From NCBI GenBank assembly GCA_014762625.1, contig JABURQ010000034.1, positions 27,397 through 91,396 of the forward strand: a DNA stretch of 64,000 nucleotides. Direction: 5' to 3'. Made by a program: the position numbers and the translations under genes. Below the pieces are notes generated by a model. The model worked only from the letters and a program-made list of their open reading frames with translations, did no database searches and was not told where the DNA came from. The stretch is from Planctomycetaceae bacterium (lineage in GTDB: Bacteria > Planctomycetota > Planctomycetia > Planctomycetales > Planctomycetaceae). Positions within the stretch are counted from its first letter, which is position 1. The number at the start of each line of letters is the position of its first letter. Positions 3,798-50,396 of this stretch are shown one piece after another.

Positions 3798-4796
3798 TCA
3801 TGTTAAGATTTGGTTTTTCTGATTTGACTTCTGTTGTTGTCTATTTAGAAATTCCTCGAATTTTTCAACCGTATTGAAGAGGTTTGAAGGTTCCAACTCA
3901 AGTGTTCTCGCAACGAGAAACTCTGTCATTCGTATAAACATTTTTGCATCATCGATTACACTGTCGGTATCTGGAAACATCCCGTAATGTATTAGTCGAT
4001 TTCTGATTCCAGCTAATTCGTTCAATCGTCTATGATCTTTTTCACCGAGCCGGTGCTTGAATGCATAGTTAGTGAGTAGAAACGCGATTTTTTCTACCGC
4101 CTTGGTATTTCGAAGAGCCTTATTTGATAACCATGAATCATTCAGGACAGAAAACAGATGCTCCCAAATGGTCCAGCTTTGTATGAAAGCTGTCTCAACA
4201 GTTATTTGGGCGATCATTGATTTACAAAGCCGTAGATAATGGCCCTTACGATATCTTTCTTTCCAATTATCATCTTGGATAAGTTGAAAAATGCGGCTAA
4301 CCTCCTGCTCGAAACCAACATTGATGCTCAGGTACTCTTCTTCTGATCCACCTGCTTCAGCATACGGAATCGATGTTGCAAGTATCCCACCCCATCTAAA
4401 ATATCGAGGGTCATTGAAAAGCAACGGTTCTGTGTTGCTCGAATCGTCATGCAAAGAAAGCGCAATGTCTCTAGAGGTGAAAATACTCAGAAGAACTATC
4501 AGGTCGTGTAAGATTCCATATTCAATGTCTGGATGAAATAAGACTGATTTTGAAAATGATTCATCACAATGAAGCTGGGCTGTCATTTGGTGTGATCCAG
4601 AGTTCTTTTGTGCTGAGTATGAACCTGTGTGGTCTGAATAGTGGGAGAGACACTTGTATTTTTCTCGATAGTCAGGTTGTTTGATGAAATGGAAATCGCC
4701 GAAGATGAGTTCATCTCTACCCTCTGGGAATTCGAGGTTATATACATCAAATAACATATCTCTGTCCCTTTTCGGTCTTTTATAACCAAGTCCCAT
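3798..4796 (-). CDS. Hypothetical protein with C-terminal HEPN-like region
   Basis: 332-aa ORF; ELAGIRNRLIHYGMFPD contains an Rx4H (RNRLIH) motif; more AT-rich than neighbours. Confidence 0.6.
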   Translation of the reverse strand: MGLGYKRPKRDRDMLFDVYNLEFPEGRDELIFGDFHFIKQPDYREKYKCLSHYSDHTGSYSAQKNSGSHQMTAQLHCDESFSKSVLFHPDIEYGILHDLIVLLSIFTSRDIALSLHDDSSNTEPLLFNDPRYFRWGGILATSIPYAEAGGSEEEYLSINVGFEQEVSRIFQLIQDDNWKERYRKGHYLRLCKSMIAQITVETAFIQSWTIWEHLFSVLNDSWLSNKALRNTKAVEKIAFLLTNYAFKHRLGEKDHRRLNELAGIRNRLIHYGMFPDTDSVIDDAKMFIRMTEFLVARTLELEPSNLFNTVEKFEEFLNRQQQKSNQKNQILT

Positions 4797-5099
4797 CTGC
4801 GTATACCCGCGAAATCGGCGTTAGCTGCGGTCTCATTTTTTACCTATCTCTCGGCAGGGAGGCTCCTGCCCTACAAGAACCCTTCCGGTATTCCTTTCTT
4901 CCTCATTCAAAACCAACCCCACGGTTCGCACAGCGGCTCAAAATCCGTGACACTCCCTTACCTCCGTCTTATCCGTGGCGAATCTTCTTCCCTTCGCGTT
5001 GCTTTGCCACTTCGAGTCTTTGCGTCAAAATAAAAAAAGAGACCGGTGGAAACGGCTTTACTTCTGACTCCCGAATCCTGACGCCTGATTCCTCAGACG

Positions 5100-6503
5100 T
5101 CAGTCTTCCGCACGCGAGCCGTCGCCGCACATCTTCACCATTCGAGGCTCGAACCGGGCCACTTTTTTGACCAGGTCCTGTTGCGCGTCCATCACCTCGT
5201 TGATGTTCTTGTACACGCCGGGAACTTCGTCCGCACCCGCCGAGAGCACCTCGATTCCCTTCTTGGCGAGGTCGTTTTTGACCGCCTTGAAGTTGTAGGT
5301 ATCCTTGGCCTTCCGACGGCTCATCTGACGACCGGCTCCGTGAGACGCCGACGCGAGCGAATCTTCGTTGCCGAGACCGCGAACCACGTACGCCGGGTCG
5401 GCCATCGAGCCGGGAATCACACCCAACACCCCTTTGCCGGCGGGAGTCGCCCCCTTCCGGTGGACGTAGACATCCTCGCCGCGATGGTTTTCCAGCCATG
5501 CGAAGTTGTGGTGGTTTTCGACCTCGGCGACCGCTTCCAGGCCGGCGAGTTCCGCGACGCGACGATGGATCACATCGTGATTGGCGGCGGCGTACCGACC
5601 CATCAGGTTCATGGCGTTCCAGTAGTCCTGACCTTCCTGCGTGTTCATGTCGAGCCACGCCAGACGACCGAGGTCGGCAAACTTGGGAGGGAGGACCGCC
5701 CGCGCCATATCCGAATAGGTGCTGCAGACCGACGCACCGGTTCCCCGGCTGCCCGAATGCGACAGCAGCGACAGATACTCCCCTGCCTTTAGACCGAGGT
5801 CGTCGGCGTCCTCATCGAGGAACAGGTAACCCCATTCGACAAAGTGATTCCCCGAACCCGAGGTGCCGAGCTGTTTCCACGCTTTGTCCTTATTTTCGCG
5901 CGTGATGCGGGTGATCGACCAGTCTTCATCCATGACGTCGTGCCGGGCTTTGCGTTTCATCCCCTGCCCGACTCCGAAGACGGTTCCTTCTTCGAGCGCA
6001 GCGCGGAACGAATCCTTGTGCGAATTGAACTCGTCAGCCGCCAGGTCGTAGACCGTCATCTTCATGCGGCAGGCGATATCCACGCCGACTGCGTACGGAC
6101 AGATCGCGTCCTTCAGCGCGAGGACTCCTCCGATCGGCAGACCGTAACCAAGGTGCGCATCGGCCATCAGCGCACCGCCAAAGGCGTTTGGCATCGAGCA
6201 GGCCTGTTCCATCTGCGCGTGAGCGTTCGGATCGATGCCGTCGGCTCCCCAGGTCTTGTAATCGACCGGCTCCGGGCGCACGAATTCGCGGTCCGCGATC
6301 AATTCCTTCGCCAGGTCGGCGAGATGAGTATGTCCGGTAAACGTGTCTGGATTCTCCACGCACTGCGCCACGACATCCTTGACGTCGATCCGCAACGGTT
6401 TTTCGACGGTCCGGTTGTACTTGGCGATCGACTGCACGGCCTGCAGCGCGATGGGATGACAGTCTTTCGGCACTCCGAGTTTCGCCAACTGACGGGGATT
6501 CAT
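5100..6503 (-). CDS. rtcB: RtcB-family RNA ligase-like protein
   Basis: ADAHLGYGLPIGGVLALKDAICPYAVGVDIACRM, GTSGSGNHFVEWG, SHSGSRGTGA, ENHHNFAWLE motifs. Confidence 0.85.
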   Translation of the reverse strand: MNPRQLAKLGVPKDCHPIALQAVQSIAKYNRTVEKPLRIDVKDVVAQCVENPDTFTGHTHLADLAKELIADREFVRPEPVDYKTWGADGIDPNAHAQMEQACSMPNAFGGALMADAHLGYGLPIGGVLALKDAICPYAVGVDIACRMKMTVYDLAADEFNSHKDSFRAALEEGTVFGVGQGMKRKARHDVMDEDWSITRITRENKDKAWKQLGTSGSGNHFVEWGYLFLDEDADDLGLKAGEYLSLLSHSGSRGTGASVCSTYSDMARAVLPPKFADLGRLAWLDMNTQEGQDYWNAMNLMGRYAAANHDVIHRRVAELAGLEAVAEVENHHNFAWLENHRGEDVYVHRKGATPAGKGVLGVIPGSMADPAYVVRGLGNEDSLASASHGAGRQMSRRKAKDTYNFKAVKNDLAKKGIEVLSAGADEVPGVYKNINEVMDAQQDLVKKVARFEPRMVKMCGDGSRAED

Positions 6504-6776
6504 AATTCACCTCTGTTTTTTTCTGTTCCGTTTCTATTGGAACAGATGACACAGAGAGTCGCCACAGGTTCGTCAGGAGAGCGGATGATGGAGAAGCCGT
6601 CGGGCCGGTTCCACCGGTCATGAGAGAGATCAACGCAAAGTCCCAGAGAGGGAGAGGCATCCAAAGCACGAAGCCTCTCTCTTCGAGTCGGACAGGATCA
6701 AGGATTCTCTCTGAGCGGGTGTTCGCTTTGGGCGGGTGAGAGAGCTGACTGAAGAACGAGTTCCAAAATTTGCATC

Positions 6777-8216
6777 TCAGGTGAGGATGTCTTTGACGAC
6801 GTTTCCGTGCACATCGGTCAAACGGAAATAGCGGCCCTGGTAGCGATAAGTAAGTCGCTCGTGGTCGATGCCGAGCTGATTCAGAATCGTCGCCTGGAGA
6901 TCGTGTACGTGGACCGGTTTATCGACGACGTTCACGCTGTACTCGTCGGTCTCGCCGTAACTCATACCGCCGCGGACACCGCCTCCCGCCATCCAGTACG
7001 TGAAACAGTTGGGATGATGATCGCGGCCGTAGACTTTGTCAGTCAGTTTTCCCTGGCAGTAAATCGTGCGTCCGAACTCTCCTCCCCAGACGACCAGCGT
7101 CTCATCCAGCATGCCCCGCTGCTTGAGATCTTTGAGGAGTGCCGCGGTGGGCTGATCGGTATCCTTGCATTGCGCGGGGACCTGTTTCGGTGCGTTGTTG
7201 TGGGCATCCCACCCCCGGTGATAAAGCTGGATGAAGCGGACGCCCCGCTCCGCCAGACGTCGGGCCAGCAAGCAGTTGTAAGCATACTTTCCGACCTGAG
7301 TTGCTTCGGGGCCGTACATCTCCAGAATATTTTTAGGCTCGCTCTTGAGATCGATTAACTCCGGCACGCTCATCTGCATACGATACGCCAGCTCGTACTG
7401 GGCGATGCGAGTCTCGATCGCGGGATCCTGAATCTGCTCCGCCTGTTGCTGATTGAGTTTCTGCAGGGAATCCAGCATGCGGCGGCGCTGAATCTGGGTC
7501 ATTCCCTGAGGGTTATAGAGATCGAGGATCGGATTTCCCTGACCGCGAAATTTGACCCCTTGGTATTGTCCGGGTAAAAATCCCGCGCCCCATAAGCGGT
7601 TATAAAGTGGCTGCCCCTGTTTGGCGGAACCGTTGGAAGTCATCGCCACAAACGCGGGAAGGTTGGCGTTCTCACTCCCCAGGCCGTAATTGACCCACGC
7701 TCCCATACTGGGACGTCCGGCGATCACTGACCCCGTTTGGAACAGGGTCGCGGCGGGATCGTGATTGATGGCCCCGGTATGCATACTCTTGATGACACAG
7801 ACGTCGTCGATGACTTCACCGAGATGAGGCAGCGTTTCGCTGAGCCAGATGCCGGACTCGCCGTGTTGATGGAACTTGAATTTGCTGGGAGCGACGGGAA
7901 ACGACTTCTGGCCGGAGGTCATTGTTGTTTTTCGCTCGGGCGGATAAACAGAAGTCGGCACCTCTTCGCCAAACCGCTTCGCGAGCCCCGGCTTGTAATC
8001 GAAGAGGTCCATCTGCGCAGGACCGCCCGACTGAAACAGATAGATGACACGTTTGGCTTTCGGAGCGAAGTGAGGTAGACCGGACATGCGCTGCGTGGAG
8101 GCTTGATCGTCCGCATGCAGTAGCGATCCGGCAGCAATTGCCCCCAGCCCCAAGGCACCACCGCCGAGAAATGCACGGCGTGATTGAGAGGTGACGAATT
8201 CATGGCGAGGTGTCAT
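6777..8216 (-). CDS. DUF1501 domain-containing protein
   Basis: SRRAFLGGGALGLGAIAAGSLL leader; FQSGGPAQMDLFDYKPGL; GGEFGRTIYCQGKLTDKVYGRDHHPNCFTYWMAGGG; adjacent to DUF1549/1553 gene. Confidence 0.85.
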   Translation of the reverse strand: MTPRHEFVTSQSRRAFLGGGALGLGAIAAGSLLHADDQASTQRMSGLPHFAPKAKRVIYLFQSGGPAQMDLFDYKPGLAKRFGEEVPTSVYPPERKTTMTSGQKSFPVAPSKFKFHQHGESGIWLSETLPHLGEVIDDVCVIKSMHTGAINHDPAATLFQTGSVIAGRPSMGAWVNYGLGSENANLPAFVAMTSNGSAKQGQPLYNRLWGAGFLPGQYQGVKFRGQGNPILDLYNPQGMTQIQRRRMLDSLQKLNQQQAEQIQDPAIETRIAQYELAYRMQMSVPELIDLKSEPKNILEMYGPEATQVGKYAYNCLLARRLAERGVRFIQLYHRGWDAHNNAPKQVPAQCKDTDQPTAALLKDLKQRGMLDETLVVWGGEFGRTIYCQGKLTDKVYGRDHHPNCFTYWMAGGGVRGGMSYGETDEYSVNVVDKPVHVHDLQATILNQLGIDHERLTYRYQGRYFRLTDVHGNVVKDILT

Positions 8217-8217
8217 T

Positions 8218-10509
8218 TCAATTCTCCGAAATCGCTTCATCGAGATTCAGAATGGTATTGGTGACGAGCGTGTAAGCGGCGAGTTCGACCGGATCGAGCT
8301 GGGGATCGTTCGGTTTCTCACCGATGGTCAACAATTTCTTGGCTGACTGTGGGGTCTCAGAAAACTCGTTCCGATATTGCTCCAGGTCGGAAACGAGGAC
8401 CGATAATTCGTCCGCTTCGGGGCGACGACTTGTGACCATCCGGAAAGCGTTTGCAAGTCGCTCTTTCGGCGTGAGAGCCTCCTGTTTCGAGACTCTTTCG
8501 GCCAGATGGCGCGCGGCTTCCACAAACGTCACATTGTTCATCAACGTGAGCGCCTGCAGCGGAGTTGTCGTATAGTCCGACCGGACGATGCAGGTCTCTC
8601 GGGCGGCGGCGTTGAAGGTCATCATCGTCGGGGGTGGAACCGTTCGTCGCCAGTAGGTGTAAAGGCTGCGGCGATAGAGAGCCTCCCCTGTGTCCTGTTT
8701 GTATTTGGCGTTGGAGATACTGCTCCAGATTCCCGGCGGCATATACGGTTTGACCGAAGGGCCGCCCACTTTCTCATTCAGCAATCCGCTCGTAAACAGG
8801 ACTGAGTCCCGAACGGCGTTCGGCGACAGCCGTTTCCGCGGCCCCCGCGCGAGCAAACGGTTTTCCGGATCGCGCTCCTGCAATTCCGGTGATGAAAATG
8901 AGCGTTGACGGTAGGTGGCGCTGGTCACGATCAGCCGCTGCAGCGCTTTCACATCCCAGCCGCTGTTGACGAATTCTGTCGCCAGCCAATCGAGTAACTT
9001 CGGATGACTGGGATACTCCCCCTGCACGCCGAAGTTCTCACTCGTTTTGACAATGCCGATTCCGAAGTAGTGTTGCCAGAATCGATTGACGGTCACTCGG
9101 GCCGTCAAAGGGTTCTCAGGGGAGGTCAACCAATAAGCGAGCCCCAGTCGATTATCGGGCCACTCGTCGTTCCAGCCTCCGAGAGCCGGCGGAGTTGCGG
9201 GCTGTAAGGACTCGGAGGTGTCGGGTTGATCGTACTGCCCCCGTTCCAATCGATAAGTTGTCCGCGGTGTTTCGAGTTCGTGCAGCACCATGACGGTGTC
9301 GGGGGCTCCCGGTTGCGGTCGGGGGACGGAAGTCTGGCTGATTTTGACTTTCGGAGACTCGGGAACGACATACTCGCGTTCCTCCCCCGAAAGGTGGGGC
9401 CAGTTTTTGGGGACCTTGATGAAAGGAGGGCTGTTGCCGTTATTGGGCCCGAGGCCGGCTTCGTCGATGTTGTTGAAAAAGGCAAACAGACGGTAAAAAT
9501 CTTTCTGTTTGATGGGGTCGTATTTGTGGTCGTGACATTTCGAGCAATTCAGCGTCAAACCGAGAAACACGGTCCCCGTCGTTTCCACCCGGTCCGCCAC
9601 ATACTCCACGATCCATTCGTCGGGGATCGAACCTCCCTCCGAATTGATCCGATGGTTCCGGTTGAATCCGGTCGCGACTTGCGTCATGAAATCGCGGTCG
9701 GGAAGTAAATCGCCGGCCATCTGTTCGAGGATGAACTGATCGAAAGGCATGTTGTTGTTGAGTGACTGAATCAACCAGTCCCGCCAAACCCACATGTAGC
9801 GGAGACGGTCGTTCTGATAACCGTCCGTGTCGGCATAACGTGAGGCCTCCAGCCAATCCAGCGCCATGTGCTCGCCGTATCGAGGGGAATTCAGCAGACG
9901 GTCAACGGCTCTCTCGTAGGCATTTTCAGAAGAGTCATTCAGAAAGGCATCGAGTTCCTCCAAAGTTGGCGGGAGACCGGTCAGGTCGAAACTGACTCGC
10001 CTTAACAAAGTTGCTTTGTCCGCTTCGGGAGAGACCGGCAATCCTTCCCGTTCCAATCTTGCCAGCACAAAATAATCGATCCCGTTCTTCGGCCAGTCTC
10101 GGTCTTTCACAACCGGTAAATCGGGACGAGTCGGCGGTATGAACGCCCAGTGGCGATCGTCTTGCGGCCAGTCCGCCTCCTCTTTGAGCCATTGCTGTAA
10201 TTTCTTGCGATCGCCCGGTCGTAAGCGGCGTTTGGAATCGGGGGGCGGCATCTGCACGTAAGGATCGTCACTCGTCAATCGTTCCAGCATGGTTCCCGAT
10301 TTCAGGATCCCGGCTTCCATTGCGGCGTCCCGGTCATCGAGTCGCAAATCGGCTTCTCGCGCCTTGGCATCGGGACCGTGACAGTGATAACAGGCATCGG
10401 AAAGAATGGGCCGAATGTCTCTGGTGTAATCTAGAGTTTTGTCTTCTGCCTGGAGTGCCGAAGACGTTATCAGAACTGCGACGAGAAGTATGTGTTTGAG
10501 TGGTTTCAT
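8218..10509 (-). CDS. PSCyt1/DUF1549/DUF1553 planctomycete cytochrome-like protein
   Basis: ILSDACYHCHGPDAKAREADLRLDDRDAA; TFDLTGLPPTLEELDAFL-like region; CSKCHDHKYDPIKQKDFY; NRFWQHYFGIGIVKTSENFG. Confidence 0.88.
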   Translation of the reverse strand: MKPLKHILLVAVLITSSALQAEDKTLDYTRDIRPILSDACYHCHGPDAKAREADLRLDDRDAAMEAGILKSGTMLERLTSDDPYVQMPPPDSKRRLRPGDRKKLQQWLKEEADWPQDDRHWAFIPPTRPDLPVVKDRDWPKNGIDYFVLARLEREGLPVSPEADKATLLRRVSFDLTGLPPTLEELDAFLNDSSENAYERAVDRLLNSPRYGEHMALDWLEASRYADTDGYQNDRLRYMWVWRDWLIQSLNNNMPFDQFILEQMAGDLLPDRDFMTQVATGFNRNHRINSEGGSIPDEWIVEYVADRVETTGTVFLGLTLNCSKCHDHKYDPIKQKDFYRLFAFFNNIDEAGLGPNNGNSPPFIKVPKNWPHLSGEEREYVVPESPKVKISQTSVPRPQPGAPDTVMVLHELETPRTTYRLERGQYDQPDTSESLQPATPPALGGWNDEWPDNRLGLAYWLTSPENPLTARVTVNRFWQHYFGIGIVKTSENFGVQGEYPSHPKLLDWLATEFVNSGWDVKALQRLIVTSATYRQRSFSSPELQERDPENRLLARGPRKRLSPNAVRDSVLFTSGLLNEKVGGPSVKPYMPPGIWSSISNAKYKQDTGEALYRRSLYTYWRRTVPPPTMMTFNAAARETCIVRSDYTTTPLQALTLMNNVTFVEAARHLAERVSKQEALTPKERLANAFRMVTSRRPEADELSVLVSDLEQYRNEFSETPQSAKKLLTIGEKPNDPQLDPVELAAYTLVTNTILNLDEAISEN

Positions 10510-39501: not shown

Positions 39502-40401
39502 ATGCCAGTCGATGTTTACGAGCGTATCACTGCGCGCATTCTCCGAAATCTCGAAGCCGGAACGATTCCATGGCGCAAGCCGTGGGTTGGCGGAGAGGCA
39601 GGTCATCCCCGCAACCTTGCTTCCGGGCATTTCTACCGAGGAATCAATCCTTTTCTCCTAGCCTGCACTCCTTACGAGTCGCCTTACTGGCTGACGTTCA
39701 ACCAAGCGAAAAAACTCGGTGGAAGTGTCCGCAAAGGTGAGAAGTCCACTCCCGTGATCTTCTGGAAGTGGTGGGAGAAGGTGAATTCCAAGACTGGCGA
39801 AAAGGAAAAGTTCCCGCTGCTTCGTTATTACAACGTTTTCAATGTTGCACAGTGCGATCTGCCTTCCGACAAACTGCCCGGCTCTGCGTCGGTTCCGGAA
39901 TTCGCTTTTGAGCCGATTGAGGTGTGCGAGAGGGTCGTATTTGAAATGCCGGACCCTCCCGAAATCTCCCATGAAGGCGGAACCGCCTCGTATCGACCAA
40001 GTGATGATTCCATCCGTGTGCCCAAACCAGAAAGGTTTGAGAAGCCGGAAAGCTACTACGCCACTCTGTTCCACGAGTTGTCGCATTCAACTGGGCATGT
40101 GTCCCGTCTCAACCGTCCTAGCGTCACCTCTCTGATTTCATTTGGGAGTCGTTCCTATTCCAAAGAAGAACTGATTGCCGAAATGGGAGCCACATTCCTA
40201 TGCGGACACTGTGGGATCGAAAACACCGTCATTGAGAACTCTGCGGCGTACATCGCTGGATGGCTCCGCAGTTTGAAAAACGACAAGAGACTCGTTGTCC
40301 ATGCAGCAGCAGCCGCACAAAAGTCGGCTGACTTCATTCTTGGACGCCGGGATTCTGTCGATTGCAAGAGTCAAGAGAAAGAGGAGGTGTCGAATGTCTG
40401 A
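39502..40401 (+). CDS. ArdC-like antirestriction protein (ssDNA-binding N-term + zincin metallopeptidase)
   Basis: DVYERITARILRNLEAGTIPWRKPW; FNQAKKLGGSVRKGEKSTPVIFWKWW; YYATLFHELSHSTGHVSRLNR. Confidence 0.88.
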   Translation: MPVDVYERITARILRNLEAGTIPWRKPWVGGEAGHPRNLASGHFYRGINPFLLACTPYESPYWLTFNQAKKLGGSVRKGEKSTPVIFWKWWEKVNSKTGEKEKFPLLRYYNVFNVAQCDLPSDKLPGSASVPEFAFEPIEVCERVVFEMPDPPEISHEGGTASYRPSDDSIRVPKPERFEKPESYYATLFHELSHSTGHVSRLNRPSVTSLISFGSRSYSKEELIAEMGATFLCGHCGIENTVIENSAAYIAGWLRSLKNDKRLVVHAAAAAQKSADFILGRRDSVDCKSQEKEEVSNV

Positions 40402-41371
40402 AGAACGACCAACTGAAATCCGCGATGCTGCCCCCACATCAATCCGTCACATGATCGGTCAGCAGTCCGTCGTCGAACAAGTCGCCGTCGCACTCGATGC
40501 AGCTTTCACAGATGGCACGCCAATGGATTCAGCATTGATGGTTGGTCCACCCGGGTGTGGAAAAACATTGTTGGCTCATATCGTCGCAAAAGAAATGGCT
40601 TCTGATCTACACGAGGTCTTGGGGCAGACGCTGAAGGGACCAGCGGAGCTGAATGCTCTTCTGCTCCAAGCCAAAGACAGGGATGTCGTTTTCGTCGATG
40701 AAGCACATGAAGTTCCCAGACCGATTCAAACCGCGCTTTATTTGGCACTTGATCAGTCACGTATTTTGTTATCGAACGGAAAAGACGGATCATCAACTGC
40801 AATACCATTGGCGTCGTTCACGCTATTGCTCGCAACGACTGATGAGTATGGGCTTTTGCAACCGCTCCGGGATCGGATGAAACTCAATCTTCGATACGGT
40901 TTTTATTCGTCCAACGAACTGACGGAACTCTTGCTCCGGGCAACCCAGCGATTGGGATGGAAATTAGATGTTGACGTAGTGCCCATGATCGCTATGCGAT
41001 CTCGCGGAACTCCCCGCTTGGGCCTACGGCTTCTGCAATCATGTCGCAGAGTATGTCGGTCAGAAGGCGAGGAAACAATCACGGTTCGGCACTTCGACCG
41101 TGCCTGTGATCTCGAACAGATCGACGACTTGGGCCTCGATACAACCGAACGGCAGTACCTCGAAATACTGGCTGATGGTGCTTTCCGGTTGAATGTCATC
41201 GCCTCAGTGCTCGGACTTCCGGCACGGACAGTCAGCAGCGTCACGGAGTCCTTTCTGATCCGGTCGGGACTGATCGTTAAAGATGACCAAAGCCGGCGCA
41301 TGCTGACAGCGAAGGGCCGGGAGCATCTGCTGAAATCATCTGTAGCCACTCTGGGGGAAAAACATGATTGA
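40394..41371 (+). CDS. RuvB-like AAA+ ATPase
   Basis: MIGQQSVVEQVAVALDAA..., MVGPPGCGKTLLAHIVAKEM (Walker A), DVVFVDEAHEV (Walker B), C-terminal winged helix ending SFLIRSGLIVKDDQSRRMLTAKG. Confidence 0.85.
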   Translation: MSEERPTEIRDAAPTSIRHMIGQQSVVEQVAVALDAAFTDGTPMDSALMVGPPGCGKTLLAHIVAKEMASDLHEVLGQTLKGPAELNALLLQAKDRDVVFVDEAHEVPRPIQTALYLALDQSRILLSNGKDGSSTAIPLASFTLLLATTDEYGLLQPLRDRMKLNLRYGFYSSNELTELLLRATQRLGWKLDVDVVPMIAMRSRGTPRLGLRLLQSCRRVCRSEGEETITVRHFDRACDLEQIDDLGLDTTERQYLEILADGAFRLNVIASVLGLPARTVSSVTESFLIRSGLIVKDDQSRRMLTAKGREHLLKSSVATLGEKHD

Positions 41372-41849
41372 AAATATCCAAACGAAATCTGCTGTCACCG
41401 TTTCCGAAATGGCACGGATGGTAGGACTTTCACGAAGTCGTTTTTATCAATTGCAAGGGACTGCATTTCCGCATCCCGTCTACGACCCGCAGACCCGGCG
41501 GCCCTTTTACACTGCCGAGCAGCAGCAGGTCTGCCTCGAAGTTCTCCGTCGTAACTGTGGCATCGACGGCAAGCCGATCTTGTTTTACGCCAGCGGTCCG
41601 AAGCCTGCTGCCGTGAGGCGCAAGAATCGTAAGTCGAAAGTGAAAACAGAGAAGGCGACAAGTCGCAACTCAACCGTCGTCGAGGGGGTGAAATCTCTCG
41701 GAATGAATTCCGTCTCTGCGCGTCAGGTCGAGCAGACAATCCGAAAACTGTTCCCCGATGGAACCTCCAATGTCGAGCAAGGCGAAGTCATCCGGGCCGT
41801 TTTCGTGGCTCTGATGCGCCAGAATTCGACCGATAATCTGGGCGGATAA
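41364..41849 (+). CDS. HTH DNA-binding protein
   Basis: VTVSEMARMVGLSRSRFYQLQG; ATGA-type overlap with the RuvB-like gene. Confidence 0.55.
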   Translation: MIENIQTKSAVTVSEMARMVGLSRSRFYQLQGTAFPHPVYDPQTRRPFYTAEQQQVCLEVLRRNCGIDGKPILFYASGPKPAAVRRKNRKSKVKTEKATSRNSTVVEGVKSLGMNSVSARQVEQTIRKLFPDGTSNVEQGEVIRAVFVALMRQNSTDNLGG

Positions 41850-41915
41850 GTGACCTTATCCGCCCAATCGAGCCGACAAACTGTCCAATTTGTGTCCACT
41901 TTCTGTAGGTAAGCT

Positions 41916-42827
41916 ATGAAGAATTCGGGCGATAATGTTTTCCGGTGTATCCCGGTCGGTGAAAACGAAGCCGGTCTTGTGAACGAGTTCCTGAATGAGA
42001 ATGACTTCGCGCCGAATACGCGGAAGGCGTTCCGGACCGACCTGCGGAAGTTCGCTCGCTGGTTCGCCACGACGAATGCCGAATCGTTTCGGATCGACCG
42101 TGTGACGGTCCGGGATGTGATCGACTTCCGAAATCATCTTCACCGGAAAAAGGGACAGGCCGTCGCGACTGTGAACCGGGCACTTGTTACAGTCCGCCGA
42201 TTCTTCGACTGGCTGGTCGATCACGATCACGTTGATACAAACCCGGTCAAAGCAGTCAAAGAACTTCGTCGCCAGCAACTCGCACCGAAGGGGTTGGATC
42301 GGAGCGAAGTCCGCAAATTACTCCGGGAAGTCGAACTACGGAATGACACCCGCGCTGGAGCGATCTTTTCCGTGTTCCTTTACACCGGATGCCGGGTCTC
42401 GGATGTCGTGAATCTTGAACTTCCGGATTTGATGATCGGTGAACGTAGCGGTTCCGCGATTTTCCATCACGGCAAAGGCCGCAAGCAGCGTTCCGTTCCA
42501 ATTCCCCTTCCCTGCCGGAAGGCACTACAGGCTTATCTTGAAACCAGACCGCCTGTGAGTTCATCGACGGTTTTCATCGGAGAACGGGGACCGCTCACTG
42601 ACCGGGGCATCCGCGCTTTGTGCGACAAATACGCCGCCGTCTGTGGATTCAAGCTGCATCCACACCTGCTTCGGCACACGATGGCTCACCAGTATCTCAC
42701 TGACAACAGTAACGATCTTGTGGGACTAGCGCAGATTCTTGGTCACGAAAACCTGAATACGACGCGGCGGTACGTCGAGCGAACGGCTGATGATCTTGCC
42801 GAAGCCGCCGAAAACTTGAACTTCTAA
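41916..42827 (+). CDS. Second tyrosine recombinase (XerC/D-like)
   Basis: [33 protein letters not shown] (HxxR), [14 protein letters not shown]. Confidence 0.9.
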
Positions 42828-43539: not shown

Positions 43540-43700
43540 TTGAACGTATTCAAAAGAGCCGACCGATTGTAATTAACCGATCCCGCTGCAAGACTCAACA
43601 TTGCTACAGACTGCCTCTCAGCGTATTCTGAGAAAAGCATGACTCAGACCGAACTTGCAACTGAGTTACTTTATCACTCCACTTAGGAGAGCAATCATTT

Positions 43701-43967
43701 CCCGGCCTGTCGAAATCCGGCGGGCCAACTGACAATCTGAAAAACGCGCAAGCGTTTGGTTACTGGTTTCCTCAAACCGCCAACCTGAGCCGAAAGGCTC
43801 TTGATCCAGACTCGGTAACCCAACCTGCGCCCCCGAACGGGGGCGTCGGGCTGGGTGCTGGTCTGGAAGCCCTTGGCGGGGCTGAGGGAACGGTCTCGGT
43901 TTCGGCGTCCCTCTTTGTGTTGCCGAACCCTACCTGAGTGACCAGCCTTCGCAAAGGGAGCGGCACA
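43701..43967 (+). ncRNA. Candidate highly structured RNA / structured 5' leader
   Basis: At least six hairpins, several with GNRA-type loops: AAACGC-GCAA-GCGTTT; GGTT..GGTTT-CCTC-AAACC..AACC; GAGCC-GAAA-GGCTC; CCAGAC..ACCCA..CGCCCCC-GAAC-GGGGGCG..TGGGT..GTCTGG; AGCCC..GGGCT; GAGGGA..TCCCTC. Confidence 0.5.
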
Positions 43968-45689
43968 ATGTCGGAACAAAACATCAAAGCATCCTGCGAA
44001 TCTTGCGGACAAAAGTACCGCGTTCGACCTGAGAAACTGGGACAACGCATCACATGCCAGAAGTGCGGCAATGACTCTATACTGATCGCAGATGCCGCGA
44101 AGCCTGACCCCAAATCACAGGATGCCGAGTTTCAACCTTCGGCTGAACTCAGTCCACCGAAAAAAACCCAGAGTGACGGAGTCGCGTCGAAGCGATCAGG
44201 TGTCGTGACTACTACCCAAAATTATTGGTCGCGTCTTGGCAGTCGCGAGAAGTTGGGTGTGGTTGTTGGAGGAATCGCGTTGGTCCTATTGTTGCGATTC
44301 TTTCTGTTCAACGGACCAAGTTCGACAACCGCCGCCGACTACACATCAGCGGAAGTTCGCGAAATTATTCGATTGCTCAGGGAAGACGACGAGTGCCGCG
44401 ATACTCGGATCAGCGATTTCTCTCGTAATAATAATTCCCTTGAACTTTGGGAGAAGATTTTGGGAAGACCGGTTTCAGTGACGGGACGGGACGACAGCCC
44501 CGACTGGACCTTCGCTACAAAAGACGGAGCCTTGAGCATTCACGTCGGAGTTTATGAGACTCCTGATGGTGTACCTTACGTGGGAACATACACAAATGGC
44601 GAATCTTCTATTGGAATCAACGCAAACGATCCAGTGGACTCCGCTGATCTGAAACGCCGGATATTGAGCATTAAGCAACACATCGACCCGCGTGATAGTC
44701 TGGCATTCCAGCAGGAACTCGAAGAAAAATGGCAACAAGAACAAACCGCTTGGGATGAACAACAGGCGGAAGAAGCTAAGCAGCTTGCTGAGCATTCTGA
44801 TCAGATTCGTGAGGAACTCGAATCGGAGCGGGATCGCGCGGCAGCCGACCAAGATTTCATCGAACTTCGCGATGCGATGCCCGTGGGGCCGGAGAAAAAC
44901 GCGTTCTCAGAAATTCAATCAGATTGGATCGAGCGTCGCACCGCTGTGATTACCAAAGCGAGGAAGAACGGAGCATTGCCAATTCGAGAAGCCGCGTTTG
45001 GGCAAAAGGAGATCGTTCGCGAATTGCCCCTGCCGGATGTTGATGACGTGATCGAGGCACTTCGGAACAAAGCCCCGGTTCCCGTTGATCCAATTGGGAA
45101 CGAGAACAAGACTGAGTCCCAACCAGAGCAAGCCTCGCATAAACCGCCTGACACTGCATCCACGGCTGACAATCCAGCACCAAACAGTGTTCCAGACAAA
45201 ACTGGCAACTCAGTCCCCACGTCTTCTCTCACGCAAACAGCAAACCGACAAGCCGTCTACGAGATCGACATCGGATGGAAGCACGTCTTTCGCGCTGGGG
45301 ACAGAGAAACCTTGGATCGAATTTTGGCTGCAAATCCGGAATGGAGGTTGATACGAACAGCTTTTTCCGGGCTTCAAAAGGAACTCTCCGGGACGGTTCC
45401 TCTCTACCGATATGGTCGAAGAAATGATGGACGGCACACTTACCTAGTCGCGGATCAGACACCAGTTAACGGATTTCAGAAGGAAGGTGATGGTAGCCCT
45501 TTGGTTTGGGTGTGGAGAGACCAGAAGGACGGGACCGTTTCCTTATACCTTCTGGGGGCACCGAAGCGTGATATCCGCACGTTGGCAGTTGGGGAAACTG
45601 AACGCGACCGACTCGTTGGAACTGGTGAATGGCGAGAGCATCGAAAACTCGGGTACGTTTACCCGTCAGAAAATAAGAACCATGACTAA
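43968..45689 (+). CDS. Zinc-ribbon + TM protein, hypothetical
   Basis: KASCESCGQKYRVRPEKLGQRITCQKCGNDS N-terminus; LGVVVGGIALVLLLRFFLF TM helix; long helical/low-complexity region. Confidence 0.6.
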   Translation: MSEQNIKASCESCGQKYRVRPEKLGQRITCQKCGNDSILIADAAKPDPKSQDAEFQPSAELSPPKKTQSDGVASKRSGVVTTTQNYWSRLGSREKLGVVVGGIALVLLLRFFLFNGPSSTTAADYTSAEVREIIRLLREDDECRDTRISDFSRNNNSLELWEKILGRPVSVTGRDDSPDWTFATKDGALSIHVGVYETPDGVPYVGTYTNGESSIGINANDPVDSADLKRRILSIKQHIDPRDSLAFQQELEEKWQQEQTAWDEQQAEEAKQLAEHSDQIREELESERDRAAADQDFIELRDAMPVGPEKNAFSEIQSDWIERRTAVITKARKNGALPIREAAFGQKEIVRELPLPDVDDVIEALRNKAPVPVDPIGNENKTESQPEQASHKPPDTASTADNPAPNSVPDKTGNSVPTSSLTQTANRQAVYEIDIGWKHVFRAGDRETLDRILAANPEWRLIRTAFSGLQKELSGTVPLYRYGRRNDGRHTYLVADQTPVNGFQKEGDGSPLVWVWRDQKDGTVSLYLLGAPKRDIRTLAVGETERDRLVGTGEWREHRKLGYVYPSENKNHD

Positions 45690-47315: not shown

Positions 47316-50300
47316 TTACCCTACCCATTCCGCACACAACGTCTCTGCCTGCTCCAAAACTGTCTGCGTCGCAGCATCCTGCAAATCAGGCGGGTAGCCG
47401 TACTTCCGTAGAATCCTGCGGACCACTACCCGCATTTTAGCTCGCACTGTTTCCTTGATCGTCCAGTCAATAGTGGCGTTCTTTTTGACGGTCGTGAGTA
47501 GTTCATGGGCGATGACCGCGAGTTGTTTATCACCCATGACATCCACCGCACTCTCATTTGCGGCGAGAGCATCGTAGAACGCCGATTCATCTTCGTTGAG
47601 TCCGAGTTTCTCACCACGAGACTCCGCCTCCCGCATGTCTTTCGCCATTTCGATCAACTGGTCGATCATTTCCTGAGTGGTGATCGCTCGCTTGTGATAT
47701 TGTTTCAGCGATGATTCCAGCATTTCAGCAAACGAACGCGACTGCACGACATTCTTCTTTCGTCGTGTTTTGATTTCTCCTTTGAGCAGTTTTTTTAGTA
47801 ACTCGACTGCCAGATTCTTTTGAGGTAGGTGCTGAACTTCGGCAAGGAATTCATCATCGAGAATCGAAATGTCCGGTCGTTTCAAACCGGCTGCGGAGAA
47901 CACGTCGATTACTTCATCCCCAGCGGAGACAGCTTTGGAGACCAACTGCCGGATGGCGTGATCCAACTCCGCCGGGTCTTTTTCCCCACCGGATGTTTTC
48001 AGGAACGCGGACCGCACAGCTTGAAAGAATGCGATGTCATCCCGGATACGTTCCGCTTCATCGTGTGCTGGGCAAAGCGCATAAGCCCGTGAGAGATCGT
48101 AAACCGTTCGATTGAATCGTGATTTCCCATCATCGGGATCGGCTTCCAGAATATGTTGCTGCGCTTGAGGAAGCAGTGTCAGCCGTTCGGCAGACTTCTC
48201 TGAATGCCACAGCGACCAATCGAAGCCGTGCAGCATGTCACAGCAGACTTCGTACTTTTCGAGCATCACGGCGACCGCTTCTTCCGTATCAACGGCTGGC
48301 GCGCCTTTGCCTCCACTCTGGGTGTAGGTGTTCATCGCCAATTTTAACTGATCGGCAATGCCAAGATAATCGACGATCAATCCGCCGGGTTTGTCTTTGA
48401 ACACGCGATTGACTCGCGCAATCGCCTGCATCAACCCGTGCCCGCGCATCGGCTTGTCGGCGTACATCGTCGTGAGACAGGGAGCATCGAATCCCGTCAG
48501 CCACATATCCCGGACAATGACGATTTTGAATTCGCTCTCCGGGTCTTTGAAACGTTTGGCGAGTTCTTTCCGCCGGGGTTTGTTCCGAATGTGTGTCTGC
48601 CATTCCAGCGGGTCGGAAGCCGAACCGGTCATCACGACTTTCAGCACGCCTTTATCATCATCTTCACTATGCCACTCGGGGCGGAGTTCGATCAGCGCGT
48701 TGTACAAATCGACGGCAATGCGTCGGCTCATGCAGACGATCATGGCCTTGCCGTCCATCGCTTCTAATCGCTTCTCCCAATGTTGGATCAAATCATCGGC
48801 GATCAGTTTGATTCGCTTGTCTGACCCCACCAGTGCTTCGAGAGCCGCCCATTTGGTCTTTAGCTTCTCCTTCTTGGATTCTTCTTCGCCTTCGGTCAGT
48901 TCTTCAAATTCCGGGTCGAGTTTCGGCAGCAGCGATTCGTCAAGTTCCAGTTTGGCGATGCGCGATTCGTAGTAAATCGGGACTGTGGCTTGATCTTTAA
49001 CCGCCTGCTCGATGTCGTAAATGTCGATGTAATCACCGAAGACGCCCCGGGTGTTTTTGTCACCGAGTTCGATGGGAGTCCCGGTGAATCCGATGAACGA
49101 CGCCTTGGGGAGTGCATCCCGCATGTGCCGGGCGTAGCCGTCGATCATGTCGTACTGACTGCGGTGGGCTTCGTCGGCGATCACGACGATGTTTCTGCGG
49201 TCAGAAAGCATCGGGTAATCTTCGCCCTTTGTTTCAGGGAAGAATTTCTGAATGGTTGTGAAGACAACTCCACCCGACGCCACTTTCAAGAGTTCCTGCA
49301 ACTGTCCTCGATTTTCCGATTGCTGCGGATGTTGCCGCATCAATTCGTAGCAGCGCGAAAACTGACCGAACAATTGATCGTCCAGATCGTTTCGGTCGGT
49401 GAGAACGACCAGAGTGGGATTCTCCATCGCCGGGTGGGAAACCATGCGTCCGGCATAGAAAGTCATCGACAGGCTCTTACCCGATCCCTGAGTGTGCCAG
49501 ACCACTCCGCAGCGGCGATCTCCCGCTTCCGACGATGCCTGAACGGTGGCTCCGACCGCTTTCTCGACTGCATAGAATTGGTGGTATTGAGCGAGAATCT
49601 TGTAGACTTCGTCGCTGTCCGTGTCTTCCTCAAACGCGATGAAGTTTTTCAGCAAGATCAGTAAGCGTTCTTTGTCGAACACTCCCCGGATCAAAACTTC
49701 CAATTCCGTCATCGTGGGTGGGGCTTCGTTTTCACCTTCGATGGATCGCCACGGCTTGAACCACTCCTTCCCAGCAGTCAGCGATCCCGTGCGAGCATTA
49801 AGTCCGTCTGAAATGCACAGAACTTCGTTGTACACGAATAACGACGGAATCTGATCCTTGTAGGTTTGTAATTGATTCCATGCCGACCAGATCGTGGCGT
49901 CTTCACTCAACGCAGCTTTGAGTTCAATGACACAGATCGGCAAGCCGTTGAGAAACACGACCACATCCGGGCGTCGGTTGTGATGTCCTTCCACGACCGT
50001 GAATTGCCTAACGGCGAGAAAGTCATTCTCAGATGGATCGTCGCTGACCAGTCGCACGCGGTCCCCGGCGATGGAACCGTCCGGTCGGTTATATTCAACT
50101 TCGACTCCATCCCGTAGCATCTTGTGAAATGCCCGGTTATTGACGATCAGCGCGGGAGATTCTGGATTGAGGACCTTTCGCAGGGCTTCTTCACGCGCCA
50201 GCTCGGGAATGTCCGGATTCAGTTCGTCGATAGCATCCCGCAGACGGCCCATGAGTACGACATCGTTGTAGGACTGGCGTTCCGCTCCGGGTTCACCGGG

Positions 50301-50396
50301 GGCGATGTCCTGGCCGTGCAGTGTCGAGTAGCCGAGTTCGTCAAACCACGACAGGGCGGCTTCTTCAACGGTATTTTCATTGAATGTCTGGCTCAT
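47316..50396 (-). CDS. hsdR: Type I restriction endonuclease subunit R
   Basis: [22 protein letters not shown] nuclease motif; [51 protein letters not shown]. Confidence 0.95.

Follow-up and report, generated by a model that had tools for sequence, protein, structure and literature searches.

By comparison of homologous sequences, positions 43731-43930 on the plus strand of the window (the whole 64,000-nucleotide stretch of Planctomycetaceae DNA analysed here) hold a copy of a new conserved RNA class, outside Rfam 15, that is present in many Planctomycetota. The RNA is about 200 bases long, and it is probably the leader at the 5′ end of the mRNA for the downstream gene, and also a member of a new class of cis-acting transcription attenuators, most likely a riboswitch-like sensor. 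Comparison of homologues supports two sets of helices, their mutual exclusion, a U-tract, the placement of the RNA before genes and the type of gene that it precedes. That the second set of helices terminates transcription, and that the balance between the two folds is regulated by a ligand, a protein or another RNA, we infer. The coordinates of all features are collected in Table 1.

A sequence-only reading of the window had described this region as a dense structured RNA, more GC-rich than its flanks and of no recognised class, and each of its refutation tests (folding against shuffled sequence, covariation, a match in Rfam) came out in favour of a structured RNA. Positions 43690-43970 (+) fold at -134.9 kcal/mol, compared with a mean of -105.1 kcal/mol for shuffled sequences (z = -5.9), and none of 200 shuffles was equally stable; for the core alone, 43731-43930, z is also -5.9. 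The minus strand of 43690-43970 reaches only z = -2.4, so the folding excess is strand-specific. The G+C content is 0.62 in the structured region versus approximately 0.45-0.53 in the flanks. When the window was searched with Rfam 15, the single match was a tRNA elsewhere, and the RNA region gave nothing below an E value of 4.8 with permissive filters; 16 homologous loci likewise gave tRNAs alone.

A BLAST search of the window's own genome found two further, diverged copies (76-82% identity), and there were BLAST matches in 11 of 60 genomes of relatives, the window's own counted. Nucleotide similarity to the best relatives stops at the U-tract (query position 217, equal to 43916). Thirteen copies were aligned, and RNAalifold predicted 52 pairs in them, half of which (26) show compensatory changes. 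A covariance model of the RNA, R1, matches 51 of 171 genomes of the same family, 89 of 399 genomes sampled from the class (with matches in 55 of 188 genera) and 32 of 399 sampled from the phylum, and what had no recognised class is thus a covariance-model family spread across the phylum. Ten genomes with matches in the phylum sample lie outside the class, some with very strong matches (E ~1e-32 to 1e-37) and some with weak ones. Copies number from one to six per genome, with three in the window's genome, and the distribution is sporadic: the RNA is absent from two genomes of the same genus. Searches of plasmids, phages and viral contigs gave no match, and an origin in any of these was rejected on that result.

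Covariation was assessed in a main alignment, A3, and against a tree null in which substitutions were placed by Fitch reconstruction and re-dealt over the columns (40 simulations, 95 non-redundant copies). On the 104 copies of A3, which was fitted to the R1 structure and so favours R1 pairs though not the helix B:C, 95.8% of pairs are standard and 48 of 52 show two-sided changes; counts of alignment cells come from related sequences that are not independent. If the partners are slid by 1-3 columns, pairing falls to 36-48%. At E <= 0.05 against the tree null there are 18 significant pairs, and the R1 model contains 16 of these. The pairs of the upper part of P1 are preserved at 99-100%, and two of these occur in all four Watson-Crick types; hairpin A:B is significant, with 0.07 equal-scoring stacks per simulated alignment. 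G-U pairs occur throughout the helices, which is an RNA-type pairing pattern. The conserved core is aptamer-like and covaries, as that of a riboswitch does.

This comparison also sorts the hairpins that had been proposed by eye. P0, P4 and the three-segment stem at 43805-43867 are recovered among homologues, and AGCCC/GGGCT (43868-43883) is a real hairpin, although it proves to be an alternative to P3. The proposed GGTT/AACC stem enclosing GGTTT-CCTC-AAACC (43758-43785) is replaced by P1 and P3 in homologues, and TGCCG/CGGCA (43921-43965) does not belong to the conserved region. A local GAGGGA/TCCCTC terminator (43884-43913) was rejected, with 85% of cells paired and covariation no greater than in the tree null, and the helix B:C was adopted instead. 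P1, P3 and this long-range helix (43840-43851 with 43899-43911) had been missed.

The helix B:C lies outside the R1 model and has 10 contiguous pairs, which covary and are 98.8% kept in A3 and 98.6% paired in a structure-blind MAFFT alignment; none of 60 simulated alignments contained an equal. Its pair 116-175 appears as all six standard pair types and is unpaired in the first fold, and at columns 101, 112 and 179 the three strands A, B and C vary together. Strand B is common to A:B and B:C. The local hairpin at 43869-43883 is likewise well above the tree null (0.03 equal-scoring null stacks per alignment). A further candidate pairing of 43763-43769, the first 7 nt of the P1 5′ strand, with 43809-43815 is 93% paired, and its covariation is not significant. 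After strand C, the family has a mean of 6.7 T over the next 9-10 nt, and the tract is present in nearly all copies. Because strand C runs into this U-tract, B:C would be the stem of an intrinsic terminator whose 5′ arm is borrowed from A:B, and A:B would be an antiterminator-type helix. Mutually exclusive helices, one of them a terminator-type stem followed by U, are the arrangement of an attenuator, and they are found here with a U-tract that is weak in the window copy.

Table 1. Features of the RNA and its surroundings in the window (plus strand; pairing and two-sided changes refer to the aligned copies)
Feature	Position	Partner	Description
Candidate promoter	43601..43629		TTGCTA (43601-43606), 17 nt, TATTCT (43624-43629)
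GGAG element	43686..43689		Conserved, upstream of core
5′ hairpin	43703..43726		Variable sequence, directly before core
GACAATYTGA element	43731..43740		Single-stranded, conserved; columns 0-9 (e.g. A 89/95, C 85/95, A 92/95)
P0 hairpin	43742..43757		AAACGC-GCAA-GCGTTT; 98.4% paired, 5/5 pairs with two-sided changes
P1, 5′ strand	43763..43774	43883..43894	Readthrough fold
P3	43777..43783	43873..43879	99.4% paired, strong covariation
P4 hairpin	43787..43800		GAGCC-GAAA-GGCTC; 98.1% paired, 5/5 pairs with two-sided changes; GNRA loop in window copy
Long arm	43805..43820	43854..43867	97% (outer) and 90% (inner) paired; 15/15 pairs with two-sided changes
GC hairpin A:B, strand A	43825..43833	43840-43849	96.3% paired, covariation
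Strand B	43840..43851		Pairs with A in the GC hairpin or with C in the long-range helix
Local hairpin	43869..43883		Excludes P3, inside B:C loop; 95.6% paired, 5/5 pairs with two-sided changes
Strand C	43899..43911		3′ arm of terminator-like B:C
U-tract	43912..43921		Directly after strand C; window copy degenerate/weak: TCTTTGTGTT
Downstream gene	43968..45689		573 aa; zinc ribbon at N terminus, one TM near residue 94, DUF5648 domain at C terminus

Upstream of the core, -35/TAnnnT pairs cluster 65-110 nt before the start of the GACAA element across the family, and in the zone from -100 to -50 promoter-like pairs were found in 32 copies, compared with 6.5 in shuffles. The candidate promoter of the window copy matches at 8 of 12 positions and was missing from a stricter scan. 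GGAG peaks 20-60 nt before the core, with 73 occurrences in two 20-nt bins versus 2-11 per bin elsewhere. The presence of GGAG correlates with CUCC in strand C, with which it might pair, at p = 0.001 with kinship ignored. Most homologues have the 5′ hairpin, with unrelated sequences and a paired fraction of up to approximately 0.78 at its arms. By inspection, no consistent start codon or ORF follows GGAG across the homologues; a leader peptide looked convincing in two of them, the others had no start codon, and the idea was rejected.

The sequence-only reading had left open whether this was a riboswitch-like leader or a stand-alone noncoding RNA, and the placement of the copies, the short gaps to the gene and the upstream promoter-like sites favour the leader. 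Of 102 copies, 72 are followed within 100 nt by the start of a co-directional ORF of 100 aa or more, versus 16 of 102 on a mock opposite side, and with ORFs of at least 60 aa the number of copies with a co-directional downstream gene is 83 of 102. This is the co-directional proximity to a gene of an attenuator leader. A stand-alone, trans-acting small RNA, with its own promoter and with B:C plus the U-tract as a constitutive 3′ end, which has spread together with the genes or uses their intergenic space, would fit the RNA's own promoter-like sites and terminator-like end, the one to six diverse copies per genome and the end of similarity to the best relatives at 43916. We nevertheless consider it unlikely. 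Among 89 downstream ORFs of at least 80 aa, 42 start no more than 20 nt from the aligned RNA end, a gap too short to hold a promoter of the gene's own, so that transcription of these genes has to pass the U-tract. Moreover, co-directional placement and a bias toward membrane proteins are unexpected for such an RNA, and conserved competition between A:B and B:C would be purposeless in a constitutive terminator.

The bias toward membrane or exported proteins is seen in 63 of 83 downstream proteins, which have a TM or signal segment, versus 26 of 94 control ORFs (p = 1e-10), an enrichment that may be overstated since the control ORFs were chosen mechanically. An N-terminal CxxC..CxxC zinc-ribbon pattern occurs in 14 of the 83 and in 2 of the 94 controls. 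The link to a zinc-ribbon membrane protein, proposed earlier for the window's locus, turns out to be general: all three copies in the window's genome lie before genes whose products have a zinc ribbon at the N terminus and a single TM starting at residue 77-105. The window's gene has the best Zn_ribbon_4 match of its whole genome, yet this match is under the Pfam cut-off. Across the family, the downstream domains are diverse, with GYF_2 in 10 of 76 proteins (4 of 77 among control ORFs), LuxR-type domains in 6, zinc ribbons, DnaJ and dynamin, and these targets do not indicate one metabolite. PADLOC matches were scattered over the downstream proteins with nothing in common (no control set was used), and a theme of defence genes was rejected. 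A more specific proposal, which we regard as possible rather than probable, is that this is a new riboswitch class of Planctomycetota in which the core holds both sensor and terminator and the whole RNA refolds, and which would sense a signal tied to the envelope and control dispersed membrane-anchored proteins of zinc-ribbon, GYF_2 and similar kinds.

Several arrangements of RNA and gene stand out among the loci. One locus (L064, G141:C35) has in tandem an RNA, a gene for an exported protein of 375 aa, a second RNA and a gene for a zinc-ribbon protein of 650 aa, each gene with its own leader. Another (L131, G445) carries two copies in the same direction 490 nt apart (4052-4261 and 4752-4953), possibly a tandem switch, and in a third (L051, G083) copies at 4018-4221 (-) and 6483-6694 (+) lie on opposite strands about 2.3 kb apart. 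In several of six loci (L047, L048, L049, L070, L079, L084), a short ORF starting MTNG follows the RNA and a co-directional conserved membrane-protein gene lies upstream of it; the target in this group may be a small protein. P4 is missing from six others (L150, L151, L166, L167, L168, L169), which form a coherent subfamily whose target is a small helix-turn-helix protein of about 107 aa of LuxR/sigma-r4 type.

The calculated energies bear on whether the two sets of helices are truly alternatives. Taken as single helices, B:C has the lower energy in 93 of 95 copies (-20.0 versus -15.1 kcal/mol for A:B), and shuffled strand C with B gives -10.8 kcal/mol. When complete folds are compared, readthrough has the advantage over stop, by about 17 kcal/mol. 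Local and global fold preferences thus oppose each other, and the outcome would rest on the order of folding or on a bound signal. Since nearest-neighbour energies favour readthrough, kinetics or a ligand would have to bring about the stop fold, or else B:C may be added to the first fold as a pseudoknot. The same energies make plausible a constitutive pseudoknotted leader in which B:C coexists with P1, P3 and the long arm and whose role is mRNA stabilisation, protein binding or the setting of translation, with no conditional termination, but we judge this quite improbable, because A:B and the local hairpin that competes with P3 both covary and would be needless in one static fold, and because a U-tract follows strand C in nearly all copies.

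With the RNA taken as an attenuating leader, RNA polymerase would start about 100 nt upstream, and two complete folds would be open to the nascent RNA. Readthrough would go with P1, P3, P4, the long arm and A:B; strand C would then stay free and the gene would be transcribed. In the stop fold, strand B would leave A and pair with C just before the U-tract as an intrinsic terminator, at the cost of P1, P3 and the long arm; the local hairpin would form and the first 7 nt of the P1 5′ strand would probably pair with 43809-43815. A signal, which may be a small molecule, an ion, a protein or another RNA, would favour one fold over the other and thereby set the level of the membrane-anchored protein.

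The T-box sequence element is UGGNACCGCG, and a local CUUGGACCGCG stretch in the RNA resembles it. T-boxes (RF00230) are likewise large leaders with a terminator/antiterminator switch, and this identity was rejected: there is no Rfam match, and the tRNA-pairing UGG is not invariant (third position G in 44, A in 23 and T in 18 of 95 copies). The targets also differ, those of T-boxes being tRNA-ligase and amino-acid genes. A 2008 survey found no T-box in its one planctomycete genome (PMC2494555). Terminating riboswitches, especially the HMP-PP (thiS) riboswitch with its terminator-embedded aptamer, are alike in the 5′ leader, the structured core and a terminator made from core strands (PMC6478431); the present RNA differs in that it has no Rfam match and precedes genes for diverse membrane-anchored proteins rather than a metabolic pathway. 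Leader-peptide attenuators of the trp type share the three strands of which the middle one pairs either way, whereas here inspection found no consistent upstream ORF after GGAG. The only lead found in the RNA-discovery literature was the Rhodopirellula-1 motif (Weinberg 2010), which that study placed in Planctomycetes and Proteobacteria, rated probably cis-regulatory and called "ambiguous" as an RNA, and which has no Rfam accession (PMC2864571); compared by description only, it differs from the heavily covarying family here. The later discovery papers found in that search do not mention planctomycetes.

Large new RNA classes with such covariation are seldom found. The regulatory RNAs of this phylum appear to have received little study; the RNA-discovery papers searched barely mention Planctomycetota. 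It is unusual that the terminator lies inside the conserved core, which makes both folds legible from evolution; expression platforms are normally too variable (PMC13273304). Targets with a membrane anchor and small N-terminal adaptor domains would offer a handle on planctomycete envelope proteins of unknown function.

That the RNA is part of a mobile or selfish RNA-plus-gene cassette, or a recombinase landing site whose structure serves recombination as a single-strand hairpin target, is very improbable: the sporadic distribution with its two same-genus absences, the tandem locus and the triple-recombinase elements inside the RNA in two genera speak for it, but the copies in the window's genome have diverged to 76-82% identity, an unsystematic look noted no terminal repeats around copies, plasmids, phages and viral contigs hold no match, only two copies contain the trio and the pairing is of RNA type, with G-U pairs throughout.

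These elements, with three adjacent tyrosine-recombinase genes, split strand B at the same place in both genera (L063:4194-7730 in G033; L175, approximately 6850-10370, in G031). In L063, the three proteins are 412, 317 and 360 aa long, and all match Phage_integrase. The 6-nt target of the element, CGYCGG, is found again in inverted orientation beside the palindrome TTATGGARAGCTTTCCATAA, and the element resembles the RIT (recombinase in trio) elements (PMC3414803). In the window itself, 40400-42827 holds in a row the genes for a RuvB-like AAA ATPase, a small HTH-like protein and a tyrosine recombinase (Phage_integrase), and a type I restriction-like gene, recognised by eye, lies at 47316-50396; together they look like an accessory island.
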